From NCBI RefSeq assembly GCF_004340905.1, contig NZ_SLXD01000004.1, positions 248,001-312,000 of the forward strand: 64,000 bases of DNA, in the 5' to 3' direction. The notes under the pieces were generated by a model. That model was given only the letters and a program-made list of their open reading frames with translations. It did no database searches and had not been told where the DNA came from. The DNA comes from Rubrivivax gelatinosus (GTDB lineage: Bacteria > Pseudomonadota > Gammaproteobacteria > Burkholderiales > Burkholderiaceae_C). Positions within the stretch are counted from its first letter, which is position 1, and every line of letters starts with the position of its first letter. The position numbers were made by a program, and so were the translations under genes. Positions 3,208-41,427 of this stretch are shown piece by piece.

Positions 3208-4101
3208 ATGCTGAGCCTTCACACCAACGCCGCCTCCCTGTCCACGCAGAACTCCGTCGGCAACACCCAGCGTTCGCTGTCCTCGTCGATGAGCAAGCTG
3301 GGCACCGGCTACCGCGTCAATTCCGCGATGGACGACGCCGCCGGCCTGCAGATCGCCACCCGCCTGGACGCCCAGACGCGCGGCATGGCCGTCGCCCAGA
3401 AGAACACCCAGAACGGCATCTCGATGATGCAGACCGCCGAAGGCGCGCTGAGCGAGGTGACCTCGATCGTCCAGCGCATGAAGGACCTGGCCACCGAGTC
3501 GGCCACGGCCTCGACCTCGGAAGACGACCGCACCGCGCTGCAGTCCGAGTACGACGCGCTGGGCACCGAACTCGGCAACATCCTGAAGAACACCTCGTTC
3601 GGCGGCGCCAAGCTGTTCAGCGACGGCACGACGACCGACGGCACGGGCGGCCTGCTCGACGCGACCGAGCTGACCTTCCAGATCGGCGCCTCCTCGGGCG
3701 AGACGATGAAGGTCGACACCCAGACCGGCCTGGGCGCGCTGGCCACCGCGCTGGACGCGATCAGCTCCAACTACGCCGCCAGCGGCACCGCCGGCACCGA
3801 GCTCGGCACGACCGACCCGGCGACGGCCAACGGCATGATCGACAAGCTCGAGGACGCGCTCGACGCCATCGGCACCTACCGTTCGACGCTGGGCGCGGCC
3901 TCCAACCGCCTCGACCACGTCTACAACAACCTGGCGAACATGAGCACCAACACCTCGGCCGCCAAGAGCCGGATCATGGACGTCGACTACGCCAGCGAGA
4001 CGGCCAACATGACCTCGCAGCAGCTGCTGCTGCAGGCCGGCACCTCGATGCTCAAGCAAAGCGGCAGCATGTCGCAGCTGGCCCTGTCGCTGCTCAGCTG
4101 A
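3208..4101 (+). CDS. lafA: Flagellin (lateral-type LafA/FliC)
   Basis: The 297-residue protein has the conserved N-terminal D0/D1 helices (LSLHTNAASLSTQNSV, then GYRVNSAMDDAAGLQIA) and the C-terminal D1/D0 (ASNRLDHVYNNLANMSTN, then SMLKQSGSMSQLALSLL). The central D2/D3 region is very short and Thr/Ser/Gly-rich, giving a compact flagellin like those of lateral systems. It is secreted unfolded through the flagellar export gate and polymerises into the filament. The ATG at 3208 follows a CCGGAG element. It stands alone ahead of a GT41 glycosyltransferase, a setting that suggests O-glycosylation of its Ser/Thr-rich surface. I could not find a convincing sigma-28 promoter with standard spacing upstream. 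Confidence 0.95.
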   Translation: MLSLHTNAASLSTQNSVGNTQRSLSSSMSKLGTGYRVNSAMDDAAGLQIATRLDAQTRGMAVAQKNTQNGISMMQTAEGALSEVTSIVQRMKDLATESATASTSEDDRTALQSEYDALGTELGNILKNTSFGGAKLFSDGTTTDGTGGLLDATELTFQIGASSGETMKVDTQTGLGALATALDAISSNYAASGTAGTELGTTDPATANGMIDKLEDALDAIGTYRSTLGAASNRLDHVYNNLANMSTNTSAAKSRIMDVDYASETANMTSQQLLLQAGTSMLKQSGSMSQLALSLLS

Positions 4102-4223
4102 TCCCCCGGACGCGGCGCATCGGCGCCGCGCGGCGCGGGCCAGATCCGCGCCCCCCAGGCCGACCGGCGAGCGCCGGCCGGCCTTCGTGCCGTGTGCAGC
4201 GGCAGCCGAGCGAGGAAGACACG

Positions 4224-6140
4224 ATGGGAAGTCCGGCAGTGCAGGCCCGCAGCGGGCGCGATTCGTCCTGGCAGGCCGGGGTGGCCGCCGCCGAGCGTGG
4301 GCGCTGGGATGAAGCCGAGCGTGCGTTCCAGCGCGTGCTGCGCACCGAGCCGCGAGCGTCCGAGGTCTGGCTGGCGCTGTCGCGCGCGCGGCTGCACCTG
4401 GGGCGGGCGGAGGCGGCCGCCGCCGACGCGCGCCGCGCCCTGGAGCTGCAGCCTTCCGTGCTCGGCGGCCTGCAGCTCGCCGCCTGCCTGGGCCGGCTGC
4501 ACCGCCATGCCGAGCTCGCCCAGGCGCTGCAGCCGCTGGCCGAGCGCCTGCCGCCTTCGGCCGATCTGCTGTCGGCGCTGGGCGGCGCGCTGCTGCTGGC
4601 CGATCGCCCGCAGGAAGCGCTGCAGCCGCTGATCCGCGCCAACACGATGCGCATCGACGACGCGCTGTCGCACTACCGCCTGGGGCTGGTGTTGAAGCGC
4701 CTGGGCGCCGAGGCCCAGGCGGCGATCTGCTTTCGCACCGCGCTGGCCGTCGACCGCGAGCGTGCGGTGGCGCCGCTGGTGCTGCCGCTGCTGGTGCACT
4801 CGGCGCAGCAGAGCTGCGACTGGAGCGAGCTGGACAGCGACGCCGCGGCGCTGCTGGCGCTGGTCGAGCGTGGCGGTGTCGCCGATGCCGGCCAGGTCTC
4901 GCCGTTCACGCTGCTGCCGCTGGCCAGCACGCGCGCGCAGCAGCGCCGCGCCGGCGAGCTGAGCCTCGCCCACCAGCTGCGCGGCCTGCGCCCGGTGCTG
5001 CCGCCGCCGGGGCGCCGCCGCGAGGGCCGGGTGCGCGTGGGCTACCTGTCCAACGACTTGCACGACCACGCCACCGCGGCGCTGATCGTCGGCCTGCTCG
5101 AACATCACGACCGCGAGCGTTTCGAGGTCTTCGTCTACGACCACGGCCCCGGCGGCGCCGGCGCGCTGCGCCGGCGCGTGCTGGCGGCCTGCGAACACAT
5201 CGTCGACGTCGGTTCTATGGACGACGCCGCCGCCGCGCGCCGCATGCGCGCCGACGGCCTGGACATCGGCATCGACCTGAAGGGCCACACCAAGGGCTCG
5301 CGCATGGCGGTGTTCGCGCAGCGACCGGCGCCGGTGCAGCTGTCCTTCCTGGGTTATCCGGCGAGCACCGGTGCCGACTTCCTCGACTACGTGATCGGCG
5401 ACACCGTCGTCACGCCGCTGGCCCACGCTGCCGACTACAGCGAGTGCATCGCCCAGATGCCGCACAGCTACCAGCCCAACGACGACCGGCGCGTGCTGCC
5501 GCCGGCGCCGTCGCGCGCCGCGCTCGGCCTGCCCGAAGAGGCGACCGTGCTGTGCTGCTTCAACCAGAGCTACAAGATCACGCCCGAGCTGGTGTCGCTG
5601 TGGGCGCGCATCCTCGGCGAACTGCCCGGCGCCGTGCTCTGGCTGCTGGCCTGGAACCCCGACGGCCAGCGCCGGCTGCAGGCCGAGCTGGAGGCGCGCG
5701 GCGTCGCGCCGGGGCGCGTCGTCTTCGCCGCGCGCCTGCCCGTCGAGCAGCATCTGGCGCGGCTGCGCTGCGCCGACCTGTTCCTCGACACCTGGCCCTG
5801 CAACGCGCACACCACCGCCAGCGAGGCCCTGTGGGCCGCGGTGCCGGTGCTCACCGTGCCCGGCGAGACCTTCGCCTCGCGCGTGGCCGCCAGCCTGGTG
5901 GCCGCCTGCGGCCTGCCCGAGCTGGCCTGCGCCGACGCCGAGGCCTACGTGCGCAGCGCCGTCGAACTCGGCCGCTCGCCCGAACGCCTGCAGGCCCTGC
6001 GCCGCCATCTGGACGAGCAGCGCCCGCTTCTGCCCTTGTTCGACACGCAGCGCTACACGCGCGACTTCGAGGCGCTGCTGCTGCGCATGCACGAGCGCCG
6101 GCTGCAGGGCCTGGCCCCGGCGGCGCTGCCCGCGGCCTGA
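4224..6140 (+). CDS. TPR-repeat O-linked N-acetylglucosaminyltransferase-like protein (GT41)
   Basis: The 638-residue protein has TPR-type helical repeats over roughly residues 10-220 and a C-terminal GT41 (OGT/SPINDLY) catalytic region from about 270. Diagnostic OGT blocks are [47 protein letters not shown] and [19 protein letters not shown], the last lining the UDP-sugar site. Bacterial members next to flagellin genes modify flagellin Ser/Thr. The gene begins 122 bases after flagellin, with a GAGGAAGA ribosome-binding site before ATG 4224. A flagellin substrate is inferred from adjacency; the enzyme could instead use another protein acceptor. Confidence 0.88.
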
Positions 6141-6154: not shown

Positions 6155-7348
6155 GTGCTCAAGGAGATCGCGGTCGCCGATCTGCGGATCGGCATGTTCG
6201 TGCACAAGATCTGCGGCTCGTGGATCGAACACCCGTTCTGGCGCACGCGTTTCGCGCTGCGCGAGGCGCAGGACCTGGACAAGCTGCGCGCCAGCGGTGT
6301 CGAACGCGTGCTGATCGACCTGGAGCGCGGCGTCGACGTGCTGCCGGCGCTGGTGCCGGTCGACGAGCCGCTGCCCGACGCCGCGCCCGAGCCGGCGCCG
6401 CAGCCCGAGCCGCCGCGCGTCGGCCGCAGCTACGTGCAGGCCGCGGCGCTGTGCCGGCGCAGCCTGGCGCCGCTGCGCTCGCTGCACGACAGCGTGCGCC
6501 TGGGGCGCGCGGTGGCCACCGAAGCCTGCGAGCACCTGGTCGACGAGATCGTCGATTCGGTCGAGTACGAGCCGACGCTGCTCGTCGCCGTCGCCCGGCT
6601 CAAGGCCGCCGACGAGTACCTGTACCTGCACGCGCTGGCGGTGTCGGCGCTGATGGTGGCGCTGGCGCGCCAGATGGGGATGGCGACGCCGCAGCTGCGC
6701 GAGGCCGCGCTCGCCGGGCTGCTGCTGGACATCGGCAAGGCACGGCTGCCGGCCGAGCTGCTGACGCGCCCGGCGCGGCTGCAGGGCGACGAGCTGGCGC
6801 TGATGCGCCGCCACGCCGAGATCGGCCATGCGCTGCTCGCGCGCCTGGAGGGCGTGCCGGCTTGCGTGCTCGACGCCGTGCGCCACCACCACGAGCGCCT
6901 GGACGGCAGCGGCTACCCCGACCGGCTGCGCGGCGAGGCCATCCCGGCCTTCGCGCGCATGGCCGCGGTCTGCGACGCCTATGACGCCGTGACCTCGCGC
7001 CGCCCCTATCGCGCGCCCTGGGACCCGGGGCTGGCGATGCGCCATCTGGCGCAGTCGCCGCGCGAGTTCGACGCCGTCGTCGTGCAGCACTTCGTCAAGG
7101 CGGTCGGCATCTACCCGACCGGCACGCTGCTGCGGCTGAAGTCCGAGCGCCTGGCCGTCGTCATCGGCCGCGGCGGCTCGCTGCTGACGCCGCGGGTGCG
7201 GGTCTTCTACTCGGTGGCCGAACGCCATGCCATCGAGCCCTTCGAGCTCGACCTGTCCGACCCGCGCTGCGACGACGCGGTGGCCGGCATCGAGCCGCCG
7301 GAGGCCTGGCGTTTCACGGGGCTGGAGCAGCTCTGGCTGCGTGGGTGA
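6155..7348 (+). CDS. HD-GYP domain protein with N-terminal DUF3391, degenerate HD motif
   Basis: The 397-residue protein starts at GTG 6155, 14 bases after the glycosyltransferase, with GGAG upstream. The N-terminal DUF3391 (residues 1-60; [21 protein letters not shown]) precedes a Pro-rich linker and an HD-GYP domain (about 145-340). The GYP triad (253-255) and the downstream [12 protein letters not shown] block are intact, and so is H220. The HD doublet expected at 191-192 reads Leu-Asp (LLLDIGK), so one metal-binding histidine is missing. HD-GYP proteins hydrolyse cyclic di-GMP; this one may be impaired or act as a sensor. Its position beside flagellin suggests control of motility or glycosylation. 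Confidence 0.88.
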
Positions 7349-7368
7349 TCGGCGTTTGGCGGGCAGGC

Positions 7369-7552: not shown

Positions 7553-7664
7553 GCCCGCGGCAGGGCGGTACTGGGGCTGTTCGCTCGGGGGTGGTGGGCC
7601 TCCCCCCGAAGACGGGCGGTGGGCTTGGCGGCGGACGCGGGGCGGCTCAGAATCATCTGTAACC

Positions 7665-8273: not shown

Positions 8274-8282
8274 CTCATACAA

Positions 8283-9618: not shown

Positions 9619-10509
9619 ATGTCCTGGTCCCGGCTGAGCGCCGTCGCTCCGATCGTTTTCGACGCCGCCGCCGCGAGGGGCCGCGAAGCGCCGGCTGCTG
9701 CTGCGGCGCTGGCCGGCGCGCTGACGCCGCCGTTGCCCACGGCCGCCGCCGCGCCGTCCGTGCAGCCGGCCATCGTCGAGCTGCCTCCGGGTGTCGCCGT
9801 CGGCGACGTGCTGAGCTTCGAGGTCGTCGAGACCGGCGCGCGGCTGCGCCTGGCCGCACGCGGCGCGGCCGGCGCGGCGACGCCGCCGGGCTGGCAGCTC
9901 GACCCGCTGGCGCTGCGCCAGGTGCGTGGTGCCGCGCCCGACGACGCCGCGGCGCTGGCCGTGGCCTGGCGCGCCGGCATCTCGCAGCGCCTGCGTGTCG
10001 CCGCCGGCGAGCCCGGCGCGCTGGCCGCGCCGCAGACGCCGCTGCCGCCCTGGCCGGCGTCGTGGCTGGGGCTGCCGCTGGCGCTGACGATCCCGCTGCC
10101 CGACGACGGCGAAGAGGCAGCACCGCCGCCGCCGGGGCTGCGGCGCGCGCCGGCGCTGCTGCTCGTCGTCGACCTGCCGCGGCTGGGGCGTGTCGCGGCG
10201 CATCTGCAGCTGGGTGTGGGCGGGCTGTGGCTGGGCCTGGCCTGCGTGCGCCGCGAGACGCTGCCGGCACTCAAGCGTCTGCTGCCGGCGCTGGCCACGG
10301 GTTTGCGCGACGCCGGCCTGGCGCTGCTGCGCTGCCGCGTGCAGGTCGGCAGCCTGGCCGCCGGCGCGGTGCCGCTGGGCGTGCTGCCGGTGGGCTCGCT
10401 GCTGCCGCCGTCGCTGTTCGCCGCCGCGACCGAGGTCGTGCTGGCGCTGGTGCAGGCCGATGCCGGGGGAGACGACGGCGTGGACCGCCTTACCCGAGCG
10501 TCCCGATGA
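9619..10509 (+). CDS. FliK-like protein with hook-length-control C-terminal fold
   Basis: The 296-residue protein starts at ATG 9619 behind AGAGGTGG. The N-terminal half is Ala/Pro-rich and low in complexity. Residues in the last 110 (DLPRLGRVAAHLQLG..LWLGLACVRRE..PALKRLLPALATGLRDAGL) resemble the FliK C-terminal Flg_hook domain, which signals substrate switching to FlhB. It lies tail-to-tail with flhA, with a 20-base overlap of the ends, so it is not in the flhA operon. A separate, more canonical FliK is encoded at 25288. It may be a second export-specificity factor. The family call is by pattern only. Confidence 0.5.
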   Translation: MSWSRLSAVAPIVFDAAAARGREAPAAAAALAGALTPPLPTAAAAPSVQPAIVELPPGVAVGDVLSFEVVETGARLRLAARGAAGAATPPGWQLDPLALRQVRGAAPDDAAALAVAWRAGISQRLRVAAGEPGALAAPQTPLPPWPASWLGLPLALTIPLPDDGEEAAPPPPGLRRAPALLLVVDLPRLGRVAAHLQLGVGGLWLGLACVRRETLPALKRLLPALATGLRDAGLALLRCRVQVGSLAAGAVPLGVLPVGSLLPPSLFAAATEVVLALVQADAGGDDGVDRLTRASR

Positions 10510-12589
10510 CGCTGACCTCGCGCGACTCCGGGATCTCGTTGTACGACAGCACCGCCAGCCCCGGCGCGAACAGCCGCGCGTAACGCGCCAGCAGCGGCCG
10601 GATCTGCGGCATCACCAGCAGCACCGGGGCGGCGGCGAGCTGCTTCATCTGCTCCAGCACCATCGGCATGTGCGTCTGCAGCTGCGACAGCAGCTGGGGG
10701 TCGACCGGGAAGTTGTCCAGCGCGACCTTGGCGCCGCCCTGGCGCGCGCTGTTCAGCGCGCCCAGCAGCAGGTTCTCCAGCTCGGCGCCGAGGCTGAAGG
10801 CGCGCATCGTCGGCCCCGGGCCGGCGATGGTGTTGACGATCTGGCGGCGCAGCGTGCAGCGCACCTCGGCGGCCAGCAGCACCGGGTCCTTGGTCGTCTC
10901 GGCGTTCTCCAGCAGCGTCGTGGCGATCGGCACGATGTCCTTGATCGACACGTTCTCGGCCAGCAGCAGGCGCAGCACCTTCAGCAGCTGGCTGTGCGTG
11001 TAGGCCTTGTCCAGCGCCGCGGCGAGCTTCGGCGCCAGCGCGCCGCAGCGTTCGACCAGCGCCGGCACGTCCTCGTGGCGCAGCAGCTCGCCGAGATGCT
11101 CGCGCACGAGCTTGGAGACGTGCGTGGCGACGACGCCCGCGGGCTCGACGACCTGGTAGCCCAGCCCCAGCGCGTGCGCCTTGTGCTGCGGCTCGATCCA
11201 GGTCACCGGCAGCTGGTAGGCCGGCTCGATGCCGGGCACGCCGTCGAGCTCACCGTAGGTCTGCGGCGAGGGCAGGGCCATCAGCCGGTCGGGGAAGACC
11301 TCGGCCATCGCGATCGGCGTGCCGCCCAGCAGCACCGCGTACTGCGTCGGCCGCAGCGACAGGTCGTCGCGTGCGCCCAGGCGCGGCAGCACCAGGCCGA
11401 GCTGCTCGCTCATCGTCTGGCGCACGCCCTTGAGCCGCTTGGCCAGCGGCGCGCCCTGCGCCGGATCGACGAGCGCCGCCAGGCGGTAGCCCACGGTCAC
11501 CGCCACCGGCTCGACGACCGGCAGCGAAGGCCAGTCGATCTCGGCCTCGCGTTCGGCGACCAGCGCCTGCTCGACGGCCTTGGTGGTGTCGTCGGCCGGG
11601 GCCACCACCGGGCGGCGCGCCATGCGCCAGGCGACGAAACCCAGCACCGCGGCGAAGCCGACGAAGGTCGGCCAGGGCATGCCGGGGATCGCGGCCAGCG
11701 CCAGCATCACGCCGGCGGCGCCGTAGAGCACCGGCGGCGAGGCCAGCAGCTGGCGGCCGATCTGCTGCTCGACGTCGCCCGAGTCGCTGACGCGGGTGAC
11801 GATGATCGCCGCCGCCGCCGACAGCAGCAGCGCCGGGATCTGGGCCACGAGGCCGTCGCCGATCGTCAGCAGCGCGTAGGTGCGGAAGGCCTCGCCCAGC
11901 GGCAGGCCGTGCATCCAGGCGCCGATCGCGACGCCGCCGATCATGTTGATCAGCAGGATCAGGATGCCGGCGATGGCGTCGCCGCGCACGAACTTCGACG
12001 CGCCGTCCATCGCGCCGTAGAAGTCGGCCTCGGAGCCGACCTCGCGCCGCCGCGCCTGCGCCTTCTCCTGGTTGATCAGGCCGGCGTTCAGGTCGGCGTC
12101 GATCGCCATCTGCTTGCCCGGCAGCGCGTCCAGCGTGAACCGTGCCGAGACCTCGGAGATGCGCTCGGCGCCCTTCGTCACGACGACGAAGTTGATGATC
12201 ATCAGGATCACGAAGACGACGATGCCGACGACGAAGTTGCCGCCGATGACGACGTTGCCGAAGCTCTCGATGACGCGGCCGGCGGCGTGCGTGCCCTCGT
12301 GGCCGTTGAGCAGCACGACGCGGGTGGACGCGACGTTGAGCGTCAGCCGCATCAGCGTCGTCGTCAGGATGATGGTCGGGAAGACCGCGAAGTCCAGCGG
12401 CCGCTGCGTCGTCACCGCGACCAGCACGACGATCACCGCGAGCACGATGTTGAACGTGAACAGCACGTCCAGCAGCAGCGGCGGCAGCGGCAGCACGACC
12501 ATCGCCAGGATGGCCAGCAGGAAGACCGGGGCGGCGAGGCGGTTGCGCTTGAGCGCGGCCAGCAGGGTCTGGGTGGGGGTGGTGCTCAT
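10490..12589 (-). CDS. flhA: Flagellar export gate protein FlhA (LfhA)
   Basis: At 699 residues this is full length. The N-terminal third has about eight membrane helices, and the FHIPEP-family signature is at residues 149-167 (ARFTLDALPGKQMAIDADL). The C-terminal cytoplasmic domain docks chaperone-substrate complexes. FlhA is the energy-transducing core of the inner-membrane type III export gate. Its ATG overlaps the flhB stop (ATGA, 12586-12589), indicating translational coupling in the fliMNPQR-flhBA operon, of which it is the last gene. Confidence 0.97.
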   Translation of the reverse strand: MSTTPTQTLLAALKRNRLAAPVFLLAILAMVVLPLPPLLLDVLFTFNIVLAVIVVLVAVTTQRPLDFAVFPTIILTTTLMRLTLNVASTRVVLLNGHEGTHAAGRVIESFGNVVIGGNFVVGIVVFVILMIINFVVVTKGAERISEVSARFTLDALPGKQMAIDADLNAGLINQEKAQARRREVGSEADFYGAMDGASKFVRGDAIAGILILLINMIGGVAIGAWMHGLPLGEAFRTYALLTIGDGLVAQIPALLLSAAAAIIVTRVSDSGDVEQQIGRQLLASPPVLYGAAGVMLALAAIPGMPWPTFVGFAAVLGFVAWRMARRPVVAPADDTTKAVEQALVAEREAEIDWPSLPVVEPVAVTVGYRLAALVDPAQGAPLAKRLKGVRQTMSEQLGLVLPRLGARDDLSLRPTQYAVLLGGTPIAMAEVFPDRLMALPSPQTYGELDGVPGIEPAYQLPVTWIEPQHKAHALGLGYQVVEPAGVVATHVSKLVREHLGELLRHEDVPALVERCGALAPKLAAALDKAYTHSQLLKVLRLLLAENVSIKDIVPIATTLLENAETTKDPVLLAAEVRCTLRRQIVNTIAGPGPTMRAFSLGAELENLLLGALNSARQGGAKVALDNFPVDPQLLSQLQTHMPMVLEQMKQLAAAPVLLVMPQIRPLLARYARLFAPGLAVLSYNEIPESREVSVIGTLG

Positions 12590-32430: not shown

Positions 32431-32434
32431 CGCG

Positions 32435-33103
32435 ATGAGCAGCCTCTACACCCAGGCGGCGGCGAACGCCGCGTCCAGCGGCTCGTCGAACTCGATCTCG
32501 TCCAACGGCACGTCCTCGGACATGTTCACCTCGCTGCTGGTGGCGCAGATCCAGTACCAGAACCCGCTGGAGCCCACCGACGCGAGCGAGTTCGTCACCC
32601 AGCTGACGCAGCTCAGCCAGATGGAGTCGCTGCAGACGCTGAGCACCCAGGCCAGCGCCACCGCCGGGCTGATCACCGGGCTGCAGGCGCTGGGCTTCGG
32701 CGGCCTGGTCGGCAGCCAGGTCGGCGTCAGCACCGACAGCCTCACGCTGGACGGCCAGAGCACGGTGTCCGGCCGCTTCACGCTGGACGCCACCAGCACC
32801 GGCACGAAGCTGGTGCTGACCAACGACGCCGGCAAGCAGTACACGGTCGACCTCGGCAAGCGTGCCGCCGGCGAAGTCGAGTTCACGCTCGACCCGGCCG
32901 CCGCCGGCCTGCCGGCGGGCCACTACACGGTCGCCGTGACCGCCAGCACCGGCGAGAAGCCGACGCTGGAGGTCGACGGCACGCTGAACTCGGTGCGCCT
33001 GTCTGCCAGCGGCTCGCTGCTGCTGGACGTCGAGGGTGTCGGCGAGGTCGACCCCGATGCCGTCACCACCTTCACCGGCCGCAACGCCGCCACCGCCATC
33101 TGA
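32435..33103 (+). CDS. flgD: Hook capping protein FlgD (LfgD)
   Basis: The 222-residue protein has the conserved N-terminal region (SSDMFTSLLVAQIQYQNPLE, ASEFVTQLTQLSQMESLQTL) and C-terminal FlgD tudor/Ig-like domains. It scaffolds hook polymerisation and is discarded. It begins 4 bases after flgC. Confidence 0.96.
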   Translation: MSSLYTQAAANAASSGSSNSISSNGTSSDMFTSLLVAQIQYQNPLEPTDASEFVTQLTQLSQMESLQTLSTQASATAGLITGLQALGFGGLVGSQVGVSTDSLTLDGQSTVSGRFTLDATSTGTKLVLTNDAGKQYTVDLGKRAAGEVEFTLDPAAAGLPAGHYTVAVTASTGEKPTLEVDGTLNSVRLSASGSLLLDVEGVGEVDPDAVTTFTGRNAATAI

Positions 33104-33119
33104 AACCCGGGAGAACACC

Positions 33120-34304
33120 ATGAGCTTCACGATCGCCCTGTCCGGCATCTCTGCCGTCACCTCCGGCCTCGACGTCATCAGCAACAACATCGCCAACGCC
33201 GGCACCGTGGGCTACAAGTCCTCGCGCGCCAACTACAGCTCGATCTACGCCGGCAGCCAGGCCGTCGGCGCGACGATGAGCTCGACGACGCAGAGCATCT
33301 GGAACGGCGGCAGCGCCACCGCCACCGGCGGCGCGATGGACGTCGCCCTGTCGGGCCGCGGCTTCTTCACCTCCAAGGACGCCAGCGGCGAGCTGGTCTT
33401 CAGCCGCGTGGGCATGTTCAGCGTCGACAAGCAGGGCTACGTGCTCGACAGCGTCGGCCGCCGCGCGCAGGGTTTCGCCGCCACCGACGACGGCACGCTG
33501 GGCGCGATGGGCGACCTGAAGGTGCCCAACGGCCAGATCGCCGCCGCCGCGACGAGCAAGCTGTCCTACGTCGGCAACATGTCGGCCGACTGGACGACGC
33601 CGACCGTCACGCCTTTCGACGCCAGCGACTCGCTGAGCTTCAACGGCTCCAACGTGACCATCGTGCACGACTCGCTGGGCACCGAGCACACGCTGACCCA
33701 GTACTTCGTGCAGGGCAGCGGCTCGAGCGTCGAGGTGCACTACGCGCTCGACGGCACGACGCTGGGCACGACGCAGACCCTGTCCTTCGACTCCAAGGGC
33801 CAGCTCACCGCGCCGACCGGCACCGTGGCGCTGAACCTGGGCACGCCCACCGGCGCCGACGCGCTGAGCGTGGCCGTCGACTACGCCGGCACCACGCGTT
33901 TCGCCGGCGACGCGACGACGACCTACAACAACGCCGACGGCTACGCCTCGGGCACGCTGGTGGGCACCTCGATCGACGCCAGCGGCGCCGTCCTCGCCAA
34001 GTACAGCAACGGCCAGTCCCAGATGGTCGGCACGCTGGCCATCGCGACCCTGCCCAACGAGCAGGCGCTGACGGCCATCAGCGACACCAGCTGGACCGCC
34101 AACGACGGCACCGGCGCGCCGCTGTTCTTCGCCGCCGGCGTCGGCATGGCCGGCACGCTGACCACCGGCATGGTCGAGCAGTCCAACGTCGACATGACCG
34201 GCGAGCTGGTCTCGCTGATGTCCTCGCAGCGCAACTACCAGGCCAACAGCAAGGTCCTCTCGGCCGAGAACGAGATGATGCAGTCGCTGATGCAGGCGCT
34301 GTGA
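33120..34304 (+). CDS. flgE: Flagellar hook protein FlgE (LfgE)
   Basis: The 394-residue protein, ATG 33120 after CCGGGAGA, has N-terminal rod/hook motif (SGLDVISNNIANAGTVGYKS), central hook domains and the C-terminal VDMTGELVSLMSSQRNYQAN helix region. It polymerises into the hook. Residues upstream in the frame are flgD shadow. Confidence 0.96.
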   Translation: MSFTIALSGISAVTSGLDVISNNIANAGTVGYKSSRANYSSIYAGSQAVGATMSSTTQSIWNGGSATATGGAMDVALSGRGFFTSKDASGELVFSRVGMFSVDKQGYVLDSVGRRAQGFAATDDGTLGAMGDLKVPNGQIAAAATSKLSYVGNMSADWTTPTVTPFDASDSLSFNGSNVTIVHDSLGTEHTLTQYFVQGSGSSVEVHYALDGTTLGTTQTLSFDSKGQLTAPTGTVALNLGTPTGADALSVAVDYAGTTRFAGDATTTYNNADGYASGTLVGTSIDASGAVLAKYSNGQSQMVGTLAIATLPNEQALTAISDTSWTANDGTGAPLFFAAGVGMAGTLTTGMVEQSNVDMTGELVSLMSSQRNYQANSKVLSAENEMMQSLMQAL

Positions 34305-34323
34305 CGGCGGCGGGCACGACGAC

Positions 34324-35046
34324 ATGGATGCGCTGATCTACACGCTGATGAGCGGCGCCGAACGTGCGCTGCGCTCGCAGCAGATCCACGCCAACAACCT
34401 GGCCAACGCCGCCACCGACGGCTTTCGCGCCGACCTCGAGGCCGCCGAGGCGCAGACCGTGCAGGGCTACGGCTACGACGCGCGCCTGGTGACCGAGCTC
34501 GGCGACACCGTCGTGTCCTCGCGTTCGGGCCCGCTGCGCGAGACCGGCCGCGACCTGGACGTGGCGGTGCAGGGCGGCTACCTCGCGGTGCGCGCCGGCG
34601 ACGGCGAGGCCTACACGCGCGCCGGCGCGCTGCAGCTCGGCGCCGACCGCACGCTGCAGTTGAACGGCCGCGCCGTGCTCGGCGACGGCGGCCCGATCGT
34701 GCTGCCCGAGTACGAGCGCCTGGCCATCGGCGTCGACGGCAGCGTCATGGTGCAGGCCGCCGGCGAGACGGAGATGCAGGTCGTCGACCGGCTCAAGCTC
34801 GTCGCGCCCGACCCGGCGGCGGTGAAGAAGAACGCCGACGGCCTGATCGTCGCCCGCGACGGCCGCCCGCTCGAGGCCTCCGATGCCGCCAGCGTGCGCG
34901 CCGGCCACCTCGAGGGCAGCAACGTCTCGGCCGTCGAGGAGATGGTCGCGACGCTGTCGCTGAACCGCGACTTCGAGATCCAGATGAAGTTCTACAAGGC
35001 CGCCGACGACATGGTCCAGGCCGGCAACCGCCTCGTGCGCGAATGA
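34324..35046 (+). CDS. flgF: Flagellar proximal rod protein FlgF (LfgF)
   Basis: The 240-residue protein has QQIHANNLANAATDGFRADL at the N-terminus and GSNVSAVEEMVATLSLNRDF at the C-terminus, the FlgF/FlgG-type pattern. FlgF is the proximal rod component; its position between flgE and flgG fixes the identity. Confidence 0.95.
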   Translation: MDALIYTLMSGAERALRSQQIHANNLANAATDGFRADLEAAEAQTVQGYGYDARLVTELGDTVVSSRSGPLRETGRDLDVAVQGGYLAVRAGDGEAYTRAGALQLGADRTLQLNGRAVLGDGGPIVLPEYERLAIGVDGSVMVQAAGETEMQVVDRLKLVAPDPAAVKKNADGLIVARDGRPLEASDAASVRAGHLEGSNVSAVEEMVATLSLNRDFEIQMKFYKAADDMVQAGNRLVRE

Positions 35047-35065
35047 CCCACGAAAGGATGACCCG

Positions 35066-35854
35066 ATGAACCCCGCGATGTGGATCAGCAAGACCGGCGT
35101 GCAGGCGCAGGACGCCAAGCTGCAGGCGATCGCCAACAACCTCGCCAACGTCAACACCGTCGGCTTCAAGCGCGACCGCGTGCTGTTCGAGGACCTGTTC
35201 TACCAGGTCGAGCAGACCCCGGGCGCGCAGCGCAGCGACGGCACGACCTCGCCCACCGGCACGCTGCTGGGCAACGGCACGCGCATCCTCGGCACGCAGA
35301 AGGTGTTCACGACCGGCAACCTGCAGACCACCAGCCAGGCGCTGGACCTGGCCATCGTCGGCAACGGCTTCCTGCAGGTCGAGATGCCCGACGGCAGCAC
35401 CGGCTACACGCGCTCCGGCCAGCTGCAGCTCAACGCCGACGGCCGCCTCGTCACCGCCCAGGGCCTGGCCATCGTGCCCGAGATCACGGTGCCGGCCGGC
35501 GCCACCGAGATCACGATCAGCGAGAGCGGCCTGGTCTCGGCCACCGTCTCGGGCTCGACGACGCCGCAGGAGCTGGGCCAGCTGCAGACCGCCGGCTTCG
35601 TCAACCCGGCCGGGCTGCGCGCCACCGGCGAGAACCTGTTCACCGAGACCGCCGCCAGCGGCACGCCGACCGTCGGCAACCCCGGCAGCGACGGCCTGGG
35701 CAAGCTGCGCCAGGGCTCGCTGGAGGCCTCCAACGTCCAGGTGGTCGAGGAGATGGTCGAGCTGATCGCCGCGCAGCGCAGCTACGAGATGAACACCAAG
35801 GTGCTGTCGGCGGCCGACAACATGCTGCAGACCCTGGCGCAGGCGGCACGATGA
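35066..35854 (+). CDS. flgG: Flagellar distal rod protein FlgG (LfgG)
   Basis: The 262-residue protein has AMWISKTGVQAQDAKLQAIA then NNLANVNTVGFKRDRVLFED, and the C-terminal ASNVQVVEEMVELIAAQRSY. It builds the distal rod. Length is standard. The stop overlaps the flgH start (ATGA). Confidence 0.97.
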   Translation: MNPAMWISKTGVQAQDAKLQAIANNLANVNTVGFKRDRVLFEDLFYQVEQTPGAQRSDGTTSPTGTLLGNGTRILGTQKVFTTGNLQTTSQALDLAIVGNGFLQVEMPDGSTGYTRSGQLQLNADGRLVTAQGLAIVPEITVPAGATEITISESGLVSATVSGSTTPQELGQLQTAGFVNPAGLRATGENLFTETAASGTPTVGNPGSDGLGKLRQGSLEASNVQVVEEMVELIAAQRSYEMNTKVLSAADNMLQTLAQAAR

Positions 35855-36504
35855 GGGCCGCCGCCGCCGTCGTGTTCGCCGCCGCGCTGGCCGGCTGCGC
35901 CGCGATCTCGCCGCCGCAGGCGCCGCTGGTGCCGGCCGGCGACCCGATGCCCGCGCCGGTGCGCGCGCGCGGCCAGGCCGGCGGCCTGTTCGTCGCCGAC
36001 GCCGCCTGGACGCTGCACAGCGACACGCGTGCCTTCCGTGTCGGCGACGTGCTGACTGTCGCGCTGGACGAGACGACGCAGGCGAGCAAGAAGTCCGACA
36101 CCCAGTTCGCCAAGGACAGCAGCGTGTCGCTGTCGCCGCTGGTCATCGGCGGCAAGGCGCAGAAGACCGGCGTCGATCTCGACGCCCAGCGTTCGTTCCA
36201 GGGCGGCGCCACCAGCACCCAGCAGAACGCGCTGTCGGGCTCGATCACCGTCGTCGTGCACGAGGTGCTGCCCAACGGCCTGCTGCGCGTGTCGGGCGAG
36301 AAGTCGCTGTACCTGAACCAGGGCGAGGAGTTCGTGCGCCTGGCCGGCTACGTGCGCGCCGGCGACATCGACGCCGACAACCGCGTGTCCTCGCAGCGCG
36401 TGGCCAACGCGCGCATCGTCTATTCGGGCCGCGGCACGCTGGCCGACGCCGGCAGCGCCGGCTGGCTGACGCGTTTCTTCAACAGCCCCTGGATGCCTTT
36501 CTGA
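35851..36504 (+). CDS. flgH: Flagellar L-ring lipoprotein FlgH (LfgH)
   Basis: The 217-residue protein has a lipoprotein signal (FAAALAGC, lipidation Cys near residue 16) and FlgH blocks GDVLTVALDETTQASKKSDT and SGSITVVVHEVLPNGLLRVS. It forms the outer-membrane bushing. ATG 35851 overlaps flgG. Confidence 0.96.
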   Translation: MRAAAAVVFAAALAGCAAISPPQAPLVPAGDPMPAPVRARGQAGGLFVADAAWTLHSDTRAFRVGDVLTVALDETTQASKKSDTQFAKDSSVSLSPLVIGGKAQKTGVDLDAQRSFQGGATSTQQNALSGSITVVVHEVLPNGLLRVSGEKSLYLNQGEEFVRLAGYVRAGDIDADNRVSSQRVANARIVYSGRGTLADAGSAGWLTRFFNSPWMPF

Positions 36505-36506
36505 CC

Positions 36507-37643
36507 ATGAAACAACGCCTTCTCGCCGCCGTGCTGCTGGCCGCCGCCACCGTCGCCGGCGCCGCGCCGCGTGCGCCCCAGGCCGCGCCGGCGCCGGTCA
36601 CCCGCCCGCTGCAGGGCCTGGTGCATGTCGAGGGCGTGCGCGAGAACCAGCTCGTCGGCTACGGCCTCGTCGTCGGCCTCAACGGCTCGGGCGACAGCAC
36701 CCAGGTCAAGGCCGCCGGGCAGTCGGTGAGCAACGTGCTCAAGCAGTTCGGCGTCAAGCTGCCCGAACGCACCGAGAGCAAGTCCAAGAACGTCGCCACG
36801 GTGATGGTCAGCGCGGTCTTCCCGCCGGGCTACCGCAAGGGCCAGCCGATCGACGTCACCGTGTCCTCGCTGGGCGACGCCAAGAGCCTGCGCGGCGGCA
36901 CGCTGCTGCTGACGCCGCTGCGCGGCGCCGACGGCGAGGTCTACGCACTGGCCCAGGGCAACCTGGTCGTCGGCGGCGTCAGTGCCGCCGGCGCCAGCGG
37001 CTCCAGCGTCACCATCAACACGCCGACCTCGGGCCGTGTGCCCAACGGCGCCACCGTCGAGCGCGAGATCGAGACCGACTTCGACGCCCGTCCCGAGGTC
37101 CGGCTGAGCCTGAAGCGGCCCAACTTCGAGACCGCGACGCACATCGTCGAGGCCATCCGCCAGCGCTGGGGCCCGATCGCCACCACGCGCGACGGCACCA
37201 GCGTCGAGGTCGCGGCGCCGGCCGACCCGACCGAACGCGTGGCCTTCGTCGCCGCGCTCGGCCGCCTGCCGGTCGAGGTGGGTGGCGACGCGCCCAAGGT
37301 CGTCTTCAACTCGCGCACCGGCACCGTCGTCATCGCCGAGGGCGTGCGCGTGCGGCCGGCGGCGGTGTCGCACGGCGCGCTGCGCGTGGTCATCTCCGAG
37401 ATGCCGCAGGTCAGCCAGCCCGAGCCCTTCTCCCGCCGCGGCGACACCGCCGTCGTGCCGCGCAGCGACGTGCAGGTCGAACAGCAGGGCGCCGGGCGCA
37501 TGTTCCGCTGGCCGCCGTCGACCAGCCTGCAGACCATCGTCGACGTCATCAACGCCACCGGCGCCACGCCCGACGACGTGATGGCCATCCTGCAGGCGCT
37601 GGACGAGGCCGGCGCCATCGACGGCGAGCTCGTCGTCATCTGA
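36507..37643 (+). CDS. flgI: Flagellar P-ring protein FlgI (LfgI)
   Basis: The 378-residue protein has a Sec signal peptide (cleavage near AGA|APRAP) and the conserved FlgI blocks GVRENQLVGYGLVVGLNGSG, VKAAGQSVSNVLKQFGVKLP and a C-terminal MAILQALDEAGAIDGELVVI end. It forms the periplasmic ring with FlgA help. Two bases separate it from flgH. Confidence 0.97.
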   Translation: MKQRLLAAVLLAAATVAGAAPRAPQAAPAPVTRPLQGLVHVEGVRENQLVGYGLVVGLNGSGDSTQVKAAGQSVSNVLKQFGVKLPERTESKSKNVATVMVSAVFPPGYRKGQPIDVTVSSLGDAKSLRGGTLLLTPLRGADGEVYALAQGNLVVGGVSAAGASGSSVTINTPTSGRVPNGATVEREIETDFDARPEVRLSLKRPNFETATHIVEAIRQRWGPIATTRDGTSVEVAAPADPTERVAFVAALGRLPVEVGGDAPKVVFNSRTGTVVIAEGVRVRPAAVSHGALRVVISEMPQVSQPEPFSRRGDTAVVPRSDVQVEQQGAGRMFRWPPSTSLQTIVDVINATGATPDDVMAILQALDEAGAIDGELVVI

Positions 37644-37654
37644 AGGGGACGCGT

Positions 37655-38065
37655 TTGACACCGATCGCCGCACCGAACACCGTCGCCGCGTCGCGCGACG
37701 CCAGCTCCAGCGAGCCCGCGCCCGCGCCGGCCCTGGACGAGGCCACGCGTGCACGCGCCGAGAAGGCCGCCGTGCAGTTCGAGGGCTACATGATCGCGGA
37801 GATGCTCAAGCAGGCGCGCAGCGGCCTGCGCGAGCTCTCCGACGACGAGGGCCGCAGCCGCACGCACGACGAGATGCAGGACGTCGCCGACCGCGCGGTG
37901 GCCGACGCGCTGGCCGCCAGCCGCGCCTTCGGCATCGCCGACGCGGTGCTGCGCCAGGTGCTGCCGCCCGCAGCGCCCGCGGCGCTTAAGCCGGCGGCCG
38001 CCGCCGTCGCCCAGGGTGCAGGAGAGGGCGCGCCGTCGCGCGGCCCGCAACGAGACATCCGATGA
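37655..38065 (+). CDS. flgJ: Rod-binding/cap protein FlgJ, N-terminal domain only (LfgJ)
   Basis: The 136-residue protein, with a TTG start at 37655 behind AAGGGGA, has the Rod-binding domain (AAVQFEGYMIAEMLKQARSG, DEMQDVADRAVADALAASRA). The glucosaminidase half found in fused FlgJ is absent here and lies 7 kb upstream at 30236. It caps and directs rod assembly. Stop overlaps the flgK start. Confidence 0.92.
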   Translation: MTPIAAPNTVAASRDASSSEPAPAPALDEATRARAEKAAVQFEGYMIAEMLKQARSGLRELSDDEGRSRTHDEMQDVADRAVADALAASRAFGIADAVLRQVLPPAAPAALKPAAAAVAQGAGEGAPSRGPQRDIR

Positions 38066-39426
38066 GCATCATCAGCATCGCGCTCACCGGCGCCCAGGCG
38101 GCGCAGGTCGCGCTGTCCACCGTCAGCCAGAACGTCGCCAACGCCGCGACCGACGGCTACACGCGCCAGAGCACGCTGCTCGCCTCGCTGGGCTCGTCGC
38201 GCAGCGGCGTGTCCGCCGGGGAGGGCGTCAAGGTCAGCTCGCTGCAGCGCTTCAGCGACGGCTACAAGAACCTGCAGCTGTGGCAGGCGGCGTCCGAACT
38301 GGGCCGGCGCGAGTCGGCCCAGCCCTATCTGACGCAGCTCGAACGCATCGTCGGCGACGACGACAGCGGCATCGGCGCCGGCCTGGACGAGCTGTTCGCC
38401 GCCTTCAACGCCGCCAGCGTCGAGCCGACCTCGACGCCGCTGCGCCAGCAGGTCATCAGCGCCGCCGACGCGCTGTCGCAGCGCTTCGTCAGCCTGCAGC
38501 AGTCGCTGGCCAACCAGCGCTCGGCGATCATGCAGCAGCGCGACGCCCTGGCCACCGAGGCCACGACGCTGGCCACCGCGGTGGCCGACCTGAACCGCCA
38601 GATCACCGCCGCCCAGGCCACCGGCGGCAGTGCCTCGACGCTGCTCGACGAGCGCGACCGCAAGATCGACGCGCTGGCCTCGATCGCCTCGATCCAGGTC
38701 GTCGAGCAGAACGACGGTTCGCTCAACGTCACGCTGCGCAACGGCATGCCGCTGGTCGTCGGCACGCGCGCCGCGACGCTGACCATGAACCCCGGCACGA
38801 CGCCGACGCTGCAGGTCGACTTCGCCAGCCAGTCCTACAGCGTCGCCAGCGGCGTGCTCGGCGGCGAGCTCGGCGGCCTGGGCAGCTACCTGGAGGAGGT
38901 GCTCGAGCCGATGAGCGCCAGCGTCGCCGAACTCGCCTCCAGCGTCGCGACCTCGGTCAACGGCCTGCTGGCCGGCGGCTACGACCTCGACGGCAACGCC
39001 GGCGCGCCGCTGTTCGTCTTCGACAGCGCGACCAACCGGCTGTCGGTCAACGGCGCGCTGAGCGCGCGCCAGCTCGCCTTCTCGTCGGACGCGGCCAAGC
39101 CCGGCAACAGCGACGTGCTGCAGCAGCTGATCGCGCTGCCCACGCAGAGCGTCACGCTGCCGCTGCTGGGTTCGGTGCAGCTCAGCGACGCCTGGTCGCA
39201 GCTGGTCGGCGACCTGGGCAGCCGCAGCGCGCAGAACCAGGCGGCGCTGAAGACCGCCGAGACCGTGCGCGACCAGGCCGAGCAGAACTGGAAGTCCACC
39301 GCCGGCGTCAACCAGGACGAGGAGGCCGCCAGCCTCATCCAGTTCCAGCAGATGTACCAGGCCAACATGAAGGTCATCGCGGTGGCCAACGAGCTGTTCG
39401 ACAGCACCCTGCAGATGTTCGGCTGA
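38062..39426 (+). CDS. flgK: Hook-filament junction protein FlgK (LfgK)
   Basis: The 454-residue protein has the N-terminal VALSTVSQNVANAATDGYTR motif and C-terminal NQDEEAASLIQFQQMYQANM block typical of FlgK (HAP1). It joins hook to filament together with FlgL. The ATG at 38062 overlaps flgJ. Confidence 0.96.
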   Translation: MSIISIALTGAQAAQVALSTVSQNVANAATDGYTRQSTLLASLGSSRSGVSAGEGVKVSSLQRFSDGYKNLQLWQAASELGRRESAQPYLTQLERIVGDDDSGIGAGLDELFAAFNAASVEPTSTPLRQQVISAADALSQRFVSLQQSLANQRSAIMQQRDALATEATTLATAVADLNRQITAAQATGGSASTLLDERDRKIDALASIASIQVVEQNDGSLNVTLRNGMPLVVGTRAATLTMNPGTTPTLQVDFASQSYSVASGVLGGELGGLGSYLEEVLEPMSASVAELASSVATSVNGLLAGGYDLDGNAGAPLFVFDSATNRLSVNGALSARQLAFSSDAAKPGNSDVLQQLIALPTQSVTLPLLGSVQLSDAWSQLVGDLGSRSAQNQAALKTAETVRDQAEQNWKSTAGVNQDEEAASLIQFQQMYQANMKVIAVANELFDSTLQMFG

Positions 39427-39443
39427 GCACACGAGGAACGACG

Positions 39444-40352
39444 ATGCGCATCTCCAGCACCCAGTACCACGGCACGATGACGCGTGCGCTGCAGCACGCC
39501 AACTCGCAGGTCGGCGACCTGCTGTCGCGCATCGCCAGCGGCAATCGCCTGGCCGTGCCCTCCGACGACCCGGTGGCCGCGGTGCGGCTGTCGCGCCTGT
39601 CGCGCGAGCAGGCGGCGATCGAGCAGTACAGCGACAACATCGGCGCGCTGCGCTCGCGGCTGCAGCAGAACGAGGCCCTGCTCGACTCGATGAGCGAGGA
39701 CCTGCTGAACGCGCGCGACCTGCTGGTCTGGGCGGCCGACGGCACCAACACGCCCGACGACGTCGAGTCGATGGCCAGCTCGCTGGCCTCGCTGCGCGAC
39801 AGCCTGCTCTACAGCGCCAACAGCCGCGACCAGGAAGGGCGCTATCTGTTCTCGGGCACGCTGAGCAGCACCGCGCCGGTGGCCTACGACGCCAGCCAGC
39901 CCGCCGGCAGCCGCTACAGCTGGGCCGGCAATGACGAGACGCAGTGGGTCGTCGTCGGCAACGGCGTGCGCCAGCCGGCCAACGTCTCGCTGACGACGAT
40001 GGCCACCCTGCTCAACCAGCTGGACCTGGCGGCGGAGACGGCCGCCGGCGCGCCCACGGTCAGCGACCCGGCGGTGCGTGCGGTGTTCGCCGACGCGCTG
40101 GACGCCGTCGACGTCGAGCTGGCCGACGTCGGCCAGCTGATCGCGCGCCAGGGCGGCGTGCAGAACCTGCTGACGACGCTGGAAGGCAACCACGACAGCG
40201 TCAGCCTGGCCAACGACGAGGCCGCGCTGACCTACGGCGCGCTGGACTACAGCGACGCCGCGGTGCGCCTGGAGTCGTACAAGACCGCGCTGGAGGCGAC
40301 GCAGAAGTCCTATGCCAAGGTGGCGGGGCTGTCGCTGTTCGACGTGATCTGA
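39444..40352 (+). CDS. flgL: Hook-filament junction protein FlgL (LfgL)
   Basis: The 302-residue protein has the flagellin-like N-terminus of FlgL (ISSTQYHGTMTRALQHANSQ, LLSRIASGNRLAVPSDDPVA) and C-terminal coiled region ending AKVAGLSLFDVI. It is HAP3 at the hook-filament junction. Start 39444 follows GAGGAACG; the frame upstream is flgK shadow. Confidence 0.95.
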   Translation: MRISSTQYHGTMTRALQHANSQVGDLLSRIASGNRLAVPSDDPVAAVRLSRLSREQAAIEQYSDNIGALRSRLQQNEALLDSMSEDLLNARDLLVWAADGTNTPDDVESMASSLASLRDSLLYSANSRDQEGRYLFSGTLSSTAPVAYDASQPAGSRYSWAGNDETQWVVVGNGVRQPANVSLTTMATLLNQLDLAAETAAGAPTVSDPAVRAVFADALDAVDVELADVGQLIARQGGVQNLLTTLEGNHDSVSLANDEAALTYGALDYSDAAVRLESYKTALEATQKSYAKVAGLSLFDVI

Positions 40353-40371
40353 CGGCCGGGACAGCGCGCCC

Positions 40372-41427
40372 GTGCAGGTCGGCAACCCCATTCCCGGCGT
40401 CCAGGCCACGCGCGGCGCCCGCCGCGACGAGGCTTCGGGCAGCGCGGCGGCGCCCGGCGCGGCCGCGTCCGCCGCCGAGCAGGCCAGGCGCACCGAGGCA
40501 TCGTCGGCCAGCGAGCGCCAGGCGGCCCCGCTGCGCGCCGCCCGCCAGCGCGAACAGGGCCTGTCCAACACCACCGTGGCGGGCGCCCAGCGCACGCTGA
40601 ACTACCTCGACGAGCTGCAGCAGCGCCTGAAGTCGCTGCAGGAGCGGCTCGCGCGTCGTGTCGCCGACGGCCAGTCCCAGGCCGGCGCGGCCGGCGGCGA
40701 CGACGAGGGCCTGCTGGAATCGCTGCGCGCCTCGCTCGAGACCTGGCAGGCGCGGCGCGAGGCGACCTCGGGTTATCTCGACGACACGCTGCGTTTCGAC
40801 GCCGATGGCCAGTCGCGCGTGCGTTTTCGCATGCGCGGCATGAGCAGCGCCTCGCTCGACGGCGGGCGTACCGAGACGCTGTCGTTCCAGGCCCGTGGCT
40901 CGCGCCGCACGATGAGCGTCGTGCTGCCCGAAGGCGGTGGCGCCGAGGCGGCCGTGCGCCAGCTCGACCGCACGCTGGCGCCGGCCGGCGTGCGTGCTTC
41001 GCTGGACGCGGCCGGCGAGCCGGTCTTCAGCGTCGCCGAGAACCGCTGGGCCGGCCTGCAGAGTTCGCTGAGCGTGGCCGGCGGCGGCATCCGCTTCCCC
41101 GCGGGCCAGGCGCAGCCGGTGCGGCTGCAGCGCCAGGAGGCGCTGGACCCGGCGCAATGGGGTGTCGGCGAGGCCGACCAGGCACGGCGCACGCTGCGCG
41201 AGGTGAGCCAGGCGCTCGAACGCGTGCAGCGTGTGGCCGAGTCGCTGCGCCGGCTGCTGGCCAGCGAAGCCTCGGCCGGTGCTCAGGACGCCGACTGGGC
41301 GGCAGGCTTCGTGGGTGACCTCAGCCTCACGCTCAACAGCGCGAGCTACGAGACCTATGTCGCCATCGCCCCGGCGCTGGGCGGCATCAGCCGCAGCCGG
41401 GTCGTCGAACTGTTGAGTCTGGGTTGA
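40372..41427 (+). CDS. Uncharacterised flagellar-locus protein at the LafW position
   Basis: The 351-residue protein, GTG start 40372, begins 19 bases after flgL and ends the flagellar locus. The first 70 residues are Ala/Arg-rich and disordered; helical segments follow (residues 68-90 and about 265-305, AQRTLNYLDELQQRLKSLQE and RRTLREVSQALERVQRVAES) around a beta-rich centre. I see no signal peptide or membrane helix. In Flag-2 loci lafW, a putative hook-associated protein, follows lfgL, so a junction or secreted role is plausible by synteny. I cannot confirm homology by eye. Confidence 0.6.
   Translation: MQVGNPIPGVQATRGARRDEASGSAAAPGAAASAAEQARRTEASSASERQAAPLRAARQREQGLSNTTVAGAQRTLNYLDELQQRLKSLQERLARRVADGQSQAGAAGGDDEGLLESLRASLETWQARREATSGYLDDTLRFDADGQSRVRFRMRGMSSASLDGGRTETLSFQARGSRRTMSVVLPEGGGAEAAVRQLDRTLAPAGVRASLDAAGEPVFSVAENRWAGLQSSLSVAGGGIRFPAGQAQPVRLQRQEALDPAQWGVGEADQARRTLREVSQALERVQRVAESLRRLLASEASAGAQDADWAAGFVGDLSLTLNSASYETYVAIAPALGGISRSRVVELLSLG

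Follow-up and report, generated by a model that had tools for sequence, protein, structure and literature searches.

How is a lateral flagellum controlled in a bacterium in which LafK, the activator of such systems, cannot be found? What is understood of how dual-flagellated bacteria decide to make lateral flagella comes mainly from gammaproteobacteria of the LafK type, and the question is raised here by a 38-kb flagellar block (positions 3208-41427) in a 64,000-nucleotide stretch of the Rubrivivax gelatinosus genome (contig NZ_SLXD01000004.1, positions 248,001 to 312,000; hereafter the window), which belongs to a little-studied betaproteobacterial group without LafK. The original prediction, made from the DNA letters, had deduced that control of this block must differ from the LafK paradigm and had named no mechanism for the difference. 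The deduction holds up, as we found no LafK and did find a candidate control element at 17093-17187, a class I riboswitch for cyclic di-GMP (c-di-GMP) between fliM and fliE. From the comparative evidence set out below we consider it likely that this is a complete Flag-2 locus lacking LafK, whose fliE-F-G-H-I-J operon is led instead by the c-di-GMP-I riboswitch and is controlled in the manner proposed further on.

The gap between fliM and fliE spans 0.95 kb and holds no confident gene. The aptamer within it is the sole Rfam match of the whole window at gathering thresholds, lies on the strand of fliE, and occupies the position of lafK in the gammaproteobacterial Flag-2 loci. Rfam also identifies an aptamer at the same place and on the same strand in Roseateles terrae (L044:5183-5286, minus strand) and Methylibium. 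The survey was extended by a genome-wide search of 29 other betaproteobacterial genomes with Flag-2 loci, those of Roseateles and Methylibium among them, taken from a family and an order sample and set against their gene maps; 103 first-look candidates were scored per genome and negatives were rechecked separately. The gap is in view in 23 of the 24 family loci, the present one included (G542 was not counted, since its contig ends before fliE; RF01051 matches lie on its other contigs), and RF01051 was found in the gap, on the fliE strand, in 19 of these 23, namely the window and 18 relatives. The four family loci without it all belong to a single genus (g226) that includes Pseudorhodoferax soli, whose 3-kb gap, the one read among the four, has genes for a hybrid histidine kinase and for a regulator with BetR and receiver parts at L057 3442-5539. 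Of the ten other betaproteobacterial loci that show the gap, six from other families and four from Chromobacterium, Massilia, Pandoraea and Rugamonas, none has the aptamer. A model trained on these 19 sequences and run against 31 sources, including eight gammaproteobacterial Flag-2 loci and the primary flagellar locus of the same genome, recovered only the copies in the window, Roseateles and Methylibium, the best other match scoring 15.3 bits (E 1.1).

Alignment of the 19 aptamers gave standard pairs in 98.8% of the 342 pair cells and invariant core columns, with a covariation score above those of all 500 shuffles and of the slid controls; a double change from U-A to C-G is present in the window aptamer alone. 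Alignment column 10, which is G in 18 of the 19 sequences and T in L157, is one that we take to be G20 of Vc2 (G rather than A indicating c-di-GMP rather than cyclic GMP-AMP); a check of the numbering against a reference sequence did not place C92. The RNA should be a c-di-GMP sensor and would be expected to bind this ligand in vivo. Upstream, 12 of the 19 loci, all of them among the 18 relatives, have the hexamer TACAGT 8 nt 5' of the aptamer (rate of 0.004 within 25 nt in shuffles), and five more loci have TACATT, TAGCAT or TATCTT, variants chosen by eye, 8-10 nt before it, with TAGCAT being the form in the window. This conserved -10-like element suggests a housekeeping promoter, with a transcript that would start with the aptamer. 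Downstream, the distance from the aptamer end to the chosen fliE start ranges from 413 to 664 nt, and in 13 of the 19 leaders the block GTTGTG follows the aptamer at 66-97 nt, as a rule 3' of a GC-rich hairpin. A second RF01051 copy, which makes two in the 5.08-Mb genome, lies elsewhere (C21:12104-12190, 66.9 bits; L131 10104-10190 on the minus strand), about 90 nt before a gene whose 984-aa product has a subtilase domain and immunoglobulin-like repeats.

The genome, in 36 contigs, has three loci with FHIPEP genes, located in the window, on contig C9 and on contig C1. That on C9 is the primary flagellar locus, with fliO, flhF, flhG, fliA, motAB-cheYZ, three flagellins, and FlhD and FlhC scoring above their NCBIfam cut-offs, so the window is not the sole flagellar locus of the genome. 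The locus on C1 (C1:320000-339999) is an injectisome-like type III secretion locus with FHIPEP, Bac_export_2 and type III secretion ATPase genes. The window FlhA is 58-60% identical to the Flag-2/lateral FlhAs of Escherichia coli and Vibrio campbellii, 44-46% to the FlhAs from plasmid records of Cupriavidus and Burkholderia glumae, and 46% to the primary FlhA of its own genome. Among its best 80 matches in named GTDB genomes were nine betaproteobacterial loci with FlhAs 64-77% identical to it, from Rhodoferax, Roseateles, Chromobacterium, Massilia, Methylibium, Ralstonia, Pandoraea, Rugamonas and Pseudorhodoferax. In an FlhA tree of 92 rows, 36 betaproteobacterial Flag-2 FlhAs form one clade (Shimodaira-Hasegawa-like approximate likelihood ratio (SH-aLRT) support 100, quick search), which is nested in a 44-row Flag-2 clade with eight gammaproteobacterial rows (SH-aLRT 100) and is sister to the enterobacterial rows (support 89); the primary FlhA of the same genome groups with the betaproteobacterial primaries. 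A tree of 37 sigma factors likewise sets LafS apart from FliA (SH-aLRT 100), the betaproteobacterial LafS rows not being monophyletic there. Hence neither protein groups with primary flagella and both group with gammaproteobacterial lateral systems, in agreement with the earlier claim of a Flag-2 system in a betaproteobacterial background. The FlhA tree used every second gammaproteobacterial and every second betaproteobacterial primary sequence, the present genome's own being kept, and left out L129 and L130 (copies of included loci), the injectisome row and the long-branched L038; both trees are without L165, L169 and L175, duplicates of L047, L057 and L044. One FlhA row labelled as a gammaproteobacterial primary (L115) is a Burkholderiaceae metagenome-assembled genome, and a long branch, L056 of Endozoicomonas, stands at the base of the Flag-2 clade. 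The window flagellin scores best with the NCBIfam models LafA_2 (320 bits) and LafA_1 (241 bits), in each case under the cut-off, and is 45-48% identical to the lateral flagellins of E. coli and V. campbellii, the higher value being for the latter. The product of the locus would presumably be a lateral (surface) flagellum.

LafK is encoded between fliM and fliE in all eight gammaproteobacterial loci (seven by tblastn with E. coli LafK as the query, E. coli itself by annotation), and tblastn did not find it in 37 other betaproteobacterial loci (34 distinct, 32 of them with the whole fliM-fliE gap in view). Searching the rest of the genome also bore out the earlier statement that lafK is missing: 12 sigma-54 activators match E. 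coli LafK at E <= 1e-10, all fall outside the LafK clade (SH-aLRT 100), and none is on the contig of the window or on C9. Placed on the FlhA tree, the LafK character needs one change. The absence of LafK is a clade trait of the betaproteobacterial loci, and LafK marks the gammaproteobacterial subtype rather than the whole Flag-2 clade. The riboswitch character needs two changes on this tree, for which the simplest reading would be a single gain basal to a 27-row clade together with a single loss in Oxalobacteraceae. A scan for sigma-54 sites that allowed no more than one mismatch among the six positions outside the core gave none in the flagellar block and one in a single gap of the 19, and does not support a sigma-54 promoter in the fliM-fliE gap. 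A consensus sigma-28 site with at most one mismatch per half was also not found before lafA; LafS may use another consensus.

We propose that a housekeeping-type promoter would start the leader just 5' of the aptamer, that the aptamer would bind c-di-GMP, and that the leader would refold, altering the transcription, or the translation coupled to transcription, of an operon for the rod, MS ring, switch and export ATPase. This operon would comprise fliE-F-G-H-I-J and possibly continue through fliD to motB. The divergent export-gate genes flhA-flhB-fliRQPNM lie outside the leader, the riboswitch facing fliE only, and the late genes for filament, motor and cap would follow via LafS and FlgM. High c-di-GMP would turn the fliE operon off, and lateral flagella would be made at low c-di-GMP. 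This OFF direction is the most likely one by analogy, because the class I riboswitch before flgB of Clostridioides difficile is an OFF switch. The opposite direction, in which a rise of c-di-GMP upon surface contact would induce the lateral flagellum, is compatible with the sequence throughout. Motility and c-di-GMP are usually opposed, which counts against such an ON switch. So do the C. difficile class I riboswitches, which the pertinent sections of PMC6200980 describe as OFF, including the one before flgB, although the discussion there has 'all but one' for the first analyses, and we regard an ON switch as rather unlikely.

An alternative that we judge unlikely keeps the riboswitch and removes fliE from its reach, the aptamer driving a separate short leader transcript or peptide and fliE being expressed from its own downstream promoter under FlhDC of the primary system or another regulator. 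It draws on the distance between aptamer and fliE, on a possible small open reading frame (ORF) in 7 of the 19 leaders (L159, L160, L161, L162, L172, L173 and L177), which would begin with ATGAGC(A/G)AG 131-160 nt 3' of the aptamer, on a perfect dyad close to fliE in the window, and on the presence of FlhDC in the genome. Because the leader is long and a small ORF is possible in these seven loci, fliE may indeed not be the direct target. However, apart from those of near relatives, the small ORFs resemble one another in their first residues only, no coding ORF common to the 19 leaders was seen by eye, and the strand is the same and the distance to fliE similar in 19 of 19 loci. It appears improbable, moreover, that the locus encodes an ordinary lateral flagellum under FlhDC and sigma-28 in which the riboswitch is, in this genome, a decaying relic. 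The window aptamer does have the lowest score but one of the 19 (51.9 bits, against 51.1 in G509), one of its pairs is broken, as in three other rows, and its -10 element and downstream leader are unlike those of the core group; yet its score is well above the cut-off of 35, the core columns are invariant, and one pair is changed on both sides in the window. That the block is a second copy of the Burkholderiales primary system is scarcely credible, being contradicted by FlhA, LafS, the gene order and the LafA models and refuted by the trees.

Against riboswitch control of the fliE operon itself stand, besides the broken pair and the long leader with its possible ORF, several features of the alignment and the leaders. 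Changes on both sides occur in only 2 of the 18 pairs, a number reached by 35 of 500 shuffles, and further pair types are fewer than the shuffled mean, the shuffles making no correction for kinship. The window leader is without the GTTGTG block of the 13-locus core, and inspection by eye revealed no terminator with a clear U-run 3' of the aptamer. A suspected anti-aptamer helix between GUGACC and the aptamer 3' strand, good in single folds, was no better than shuffles across the 19 leaders. Furthermore, of the 33 betaproteobacterial loci in which the gap could be inspected, 14 lack LafK and riboswitch alike, so that other control must exist in these loci. Taking this distribution together, we lean slightly towards a broader view of the fliM-fliE gap as an exchangeable control slot of Flag-2 systems, filled by LafK in gammaproteobacteria, by a c-di-GMP RNA in one betaproteobacterial clade, by the hybrid kinase and BetR protein in Pseudorhodoferax, and by neither LafK nor riboswitch in other betaproteobacteria; the riboswitch would have replaced LafK such that c-di-GMP directly gates the lateral flagellum with no need of sigma-54 or a protein activator. 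If this is true, the second messenger of the sessile-motile transition is tied to a whole secondary flagellum via one cis element, and surface motility may be switched directly by c-di-GMP. The distribution, with LafK missing, the riboswitch gained and lost, and a kinase inserted, makes such replacement of a regulator testable.

The locus shares with E. coli Flag-2 the order flhAB-fliRQPNM / fliEFGHIJ, a flgB-L block read divergently from flgA and with lafW after its end, and the run fliDSTKL-lafS-motAB. Unlike the Laf systems of E. coli and Vibrio, it is without lafK and a recognisable lafZ (best tblastn match in the window E 0.66), has the riboswitch in the lafK slot, and is rearranged, with lafA at the far left beside a GT41 and an HD-GYP-type gene. 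The lafK, lafW and lafZ genes have been used as Flag-2 markers, lafK in Enterobacterales, in the account of Flag-2 architecture that forms part of PMC6993521. In Vibrio parahaemolyticus LafK activates the lateral genes, and a passage of PMC3930126 reports the fliM operon to be LafK-independent; comparably, the export-gate genes of the window lie outside the riboswitch leader. Lateral flagella in betaproteobacteria are themselves already known, having been published in 2018 for Burkholderia dolosa and others, with LafA homologues named in Duganella, Janthinobacterium, Roseateles ('Roseatales'), Chromobacterium and others in the portion of PMC5773237 concerned. As in the present genome, the B. 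dolosa lateral system exists beside a primary one with flhDC; by its description in those portions its genes differ in being spread over three regions, lafA adjoining fliM (PMC5773237). The terms lafK, riboswitch and c-di-GMP do not occur in the main text of that article. A further parallel is C. difficile Cdi-1-3, a class I c-di-GMP riboswitch before the flgB operon that acts by transcript termination as an OFF switch, as given in the relevant part of PMC6200980. Both are class I aptamers whose leaders precede an early flagellar operon, but that flagellum is Gram-positive, whereas here the flagellum is a secondary one and the riboswitch sits where sister systems have a protein activator. No report of a riboswitch in a Flag-2 locus was found among the open-licence papers listed, most of them judged by titles and openings of abstracts. 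What appears to be new is the riboswitch in the lafK position, and the comparative case for control by a c-di-GMP RNA where other systems have a protein activator is strong.

The gene content was assessed by Pfam scans of 50 predicted window proteins with NCBIfam models as a second library, and bears out the earlier claim of a complete Laf/Flag-2 set (Table 1): lafA, flhA-flhB-fliR-Q-P-N-M (minus strand), fliE-F-G-H-I-J, fliD-S-K-L-sigma28-motA-motB, flgM-N, flgA and flgC-L are all present at the places given for them, as are the GT41 and HD-GYP-type genes. It had also been stated that fliO, flhF/flhG and the chemotaxis genes are missing; their absence stands, though it is not peculiar and is ordinary for Flag-2, because the E. 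coli Flag-2 locus is also without them. The fliT-like ORF has matches of 32-38% at the same place in the loci of 4 of 29 relatives. FlgJ is in two pieces, a rod-binding half (37655) and a glucosaminidase (30236), and the E. coli Flag-2 locus too has a short rod-binding protein. The ORF directly after flgL resembles LafW weakly but is in the right place, and matches to it adjoin flgL in Vibrio sp. HA2012 and Ralstonia.

Table 1. Features of the flagellar locus and its left flank, in window coordinates
Feature	Position	Strand	Basis or remark
LysR-type regulator, left flank of block	2000..3049	-	Pfam LysR_substrate/HTH_1
lafA, lateral flagellin	3208..4101	+	Pfam Flagellin_N/C
TPR + GT41 glycosyltransferase	4281..6140	+	Pfam Glyco_transf_41
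DUF3391 + HD-GYP-type protein	6155..7348	+	Pfam DUF3391, HD_5
second FliK-like ORF (weak)	9760..10509	+	Flg_hook under cut-off; no NCBIfam match
flhA (lfhA)	10490..12589	-	FHIPEP; Flag-2 clade, SH-aLRT 100
flhB	12586..13725	-	Pfam
fliR	13718..14497	-	Pfam
fliQ	14503..14775	-	Pfam
fliP	14787..15560	-	Pfam
fliN	15557..15898	-	Pfam
fliM, Flag-2 type	15910..16740	-	FliMN_C only; scanned from GTG 16680, in-frame ATG at 16740
-10-like element TAGCAT	17085..17090	+	8 nt before aptamer; picked by eye
c-di-GMP-I (GEMM-I) riboswitch aptamer, putative leader of fliE operon	17093..17187	+	Rfam RF01051, 51.9 bits vs gathering score 35
perfect 12-bp dyad AGGACTTCAGGA-T-TCCTGAAGTCCT, one central base	17545..17569		about 120 nt upstream of fliE
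fliE, first structural gene 3' of riboswitch	17689..18030	+	Pfam
fliF	18041..19708	+	Pfam
fliG	19692..20720	+	Pfam
fliH	20717..21430	+	Pfam
fliI	21427..22737	+	Pfam; 67% identity to E. coli Flag-2 FliI
fliJ	22734..23171	+	Pfam
fliD (lafB)	23249..24592	+	Pfam
fliS (lafC)	24616..25002	+	Pfam
fliT-like (lafD)	24995..25291	+	named by position; no Pfam/NCBIfam match
fliK (lafE)	25288..26418	+	Pfam
fliL (lafF)	26415..26867	+	Pfam
lafS, sigma-28	26864..27586	+	Pfam; with lateral LafS, apart from FliA at SH-aLRT 100
motA (lafT)	27602..28522	+	Pfam; 54% identity to E. coli Flag-2 MotA
motB (lafU)	28464..29492	+	Pfam
flgM, anti-sigma-28	29534..29827	+	Pfam
flgN	29824..30249	+	Pfam
separate muramidase, C-terminal half of FlgJ	30236..30949	+	Pfam Glucosaminidase
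flgA	30946..31782	-	Pfam; called start overlaps flgB, real start probably near 31650
flgB	31655..32014	+	from reading frames (missed by gene caller); 52% identity to E. coli Flag-2 FlgB
flgC, D, E, F, G, H, I + rod-binding half of flgJ	32011..38065	+	Pfam; rod-binding match under cut-off
flgK + flgL	38062..40352	+	Pfam
lafW-like hook-associated protein	40372..41427	+	27.8% identity to E. coli LafW, E 1.8e-7 (blastp); no Pfam/NCBIfam match

The occurrence of the locus is patchy. In 36 genomes of the same genus, several of them incomplete, there is no full-length FlhA more than 49% identical to that of the window, and the partial matches of 57% and 65% fall in the N-terminal part, over which the primary FlhA of the present genome is itself 54% and 65% identical. 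A Flag-2 FlhA (E <= 1e-200) is encoded in 24 of 399 family genomes (16 of 141 genera) and in 7 of 399 order-level genomes, the present genome being included in both samples. Homologues of the flanking genes, LysR (65% identical) and a pyridoxal phosphate enzyme, are found in the same orientation with one gene between them in one of six same-genus stretches, the other five having no LysR match. This arrangement is as would be expected if the 38-kb block were an island inserted (or lost) there.

The FliM of the window scores 23.9 bits with the fliM_switch model, against a cut-off of 219.6. The N-terminal motif LSQDEVDALL of FliM binds CheY; it is present in the primary FliM of this genome and in neither the window FliM nor, in the form LSQDE(I/V)DALL, the E. 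coli Flag-2 FliM. With a locus devoid of che genes and a FliM devoid of the motif, the lateral motor may not respond to CheY or may be steered in another way. The motif-less FliM is common to E. coli Flag-2 and so is not new here. The GT41 gene product probably glycosylates flagellin, and the primary flagellin genes of the same genome are also adjoined by a GT41-like gene. The neighbouring DUF3391 protein has LLLDIGK, that is LD where the HD dyad is expected by what we take to be the canonical HD-GYP motif, and retains HHE..D and GYP. Because the histidine is replaced, its c-di-GMP phosphodiesterase activity is doubtful; it may sense c-di-GMP instead of cleaving it. Near the flhA genes of the other betaproteobacteria (38 loci, 35 distinct, in which 29 stretches end at flhA with the lafA side mostly out of view) no HD-GYP gene was seen, and a GT41 gene was seen in L043 and L046 alone. 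The 2.4 kb that separate the HD-GYP-type gene from the FliK-like ORF (7349-9759) contain no confident gene and have low GC (0.58 at 8001-9000), inverted repeats, and direct repeats of 85 nt that are 88% identical and lie 2049 nt apart. The dyad upstream of fliE is a possible operator or hairpin. To the right of the block, a gene for an SrpI-like type 2A encapsulin shell (46138-47067, minus strand) adjoins an aminotransferase class-V gene (44352-46127, minus strand; both by Pfam), presumably the arrangement of a cysteine-desulfurase-loaded encapsulin.

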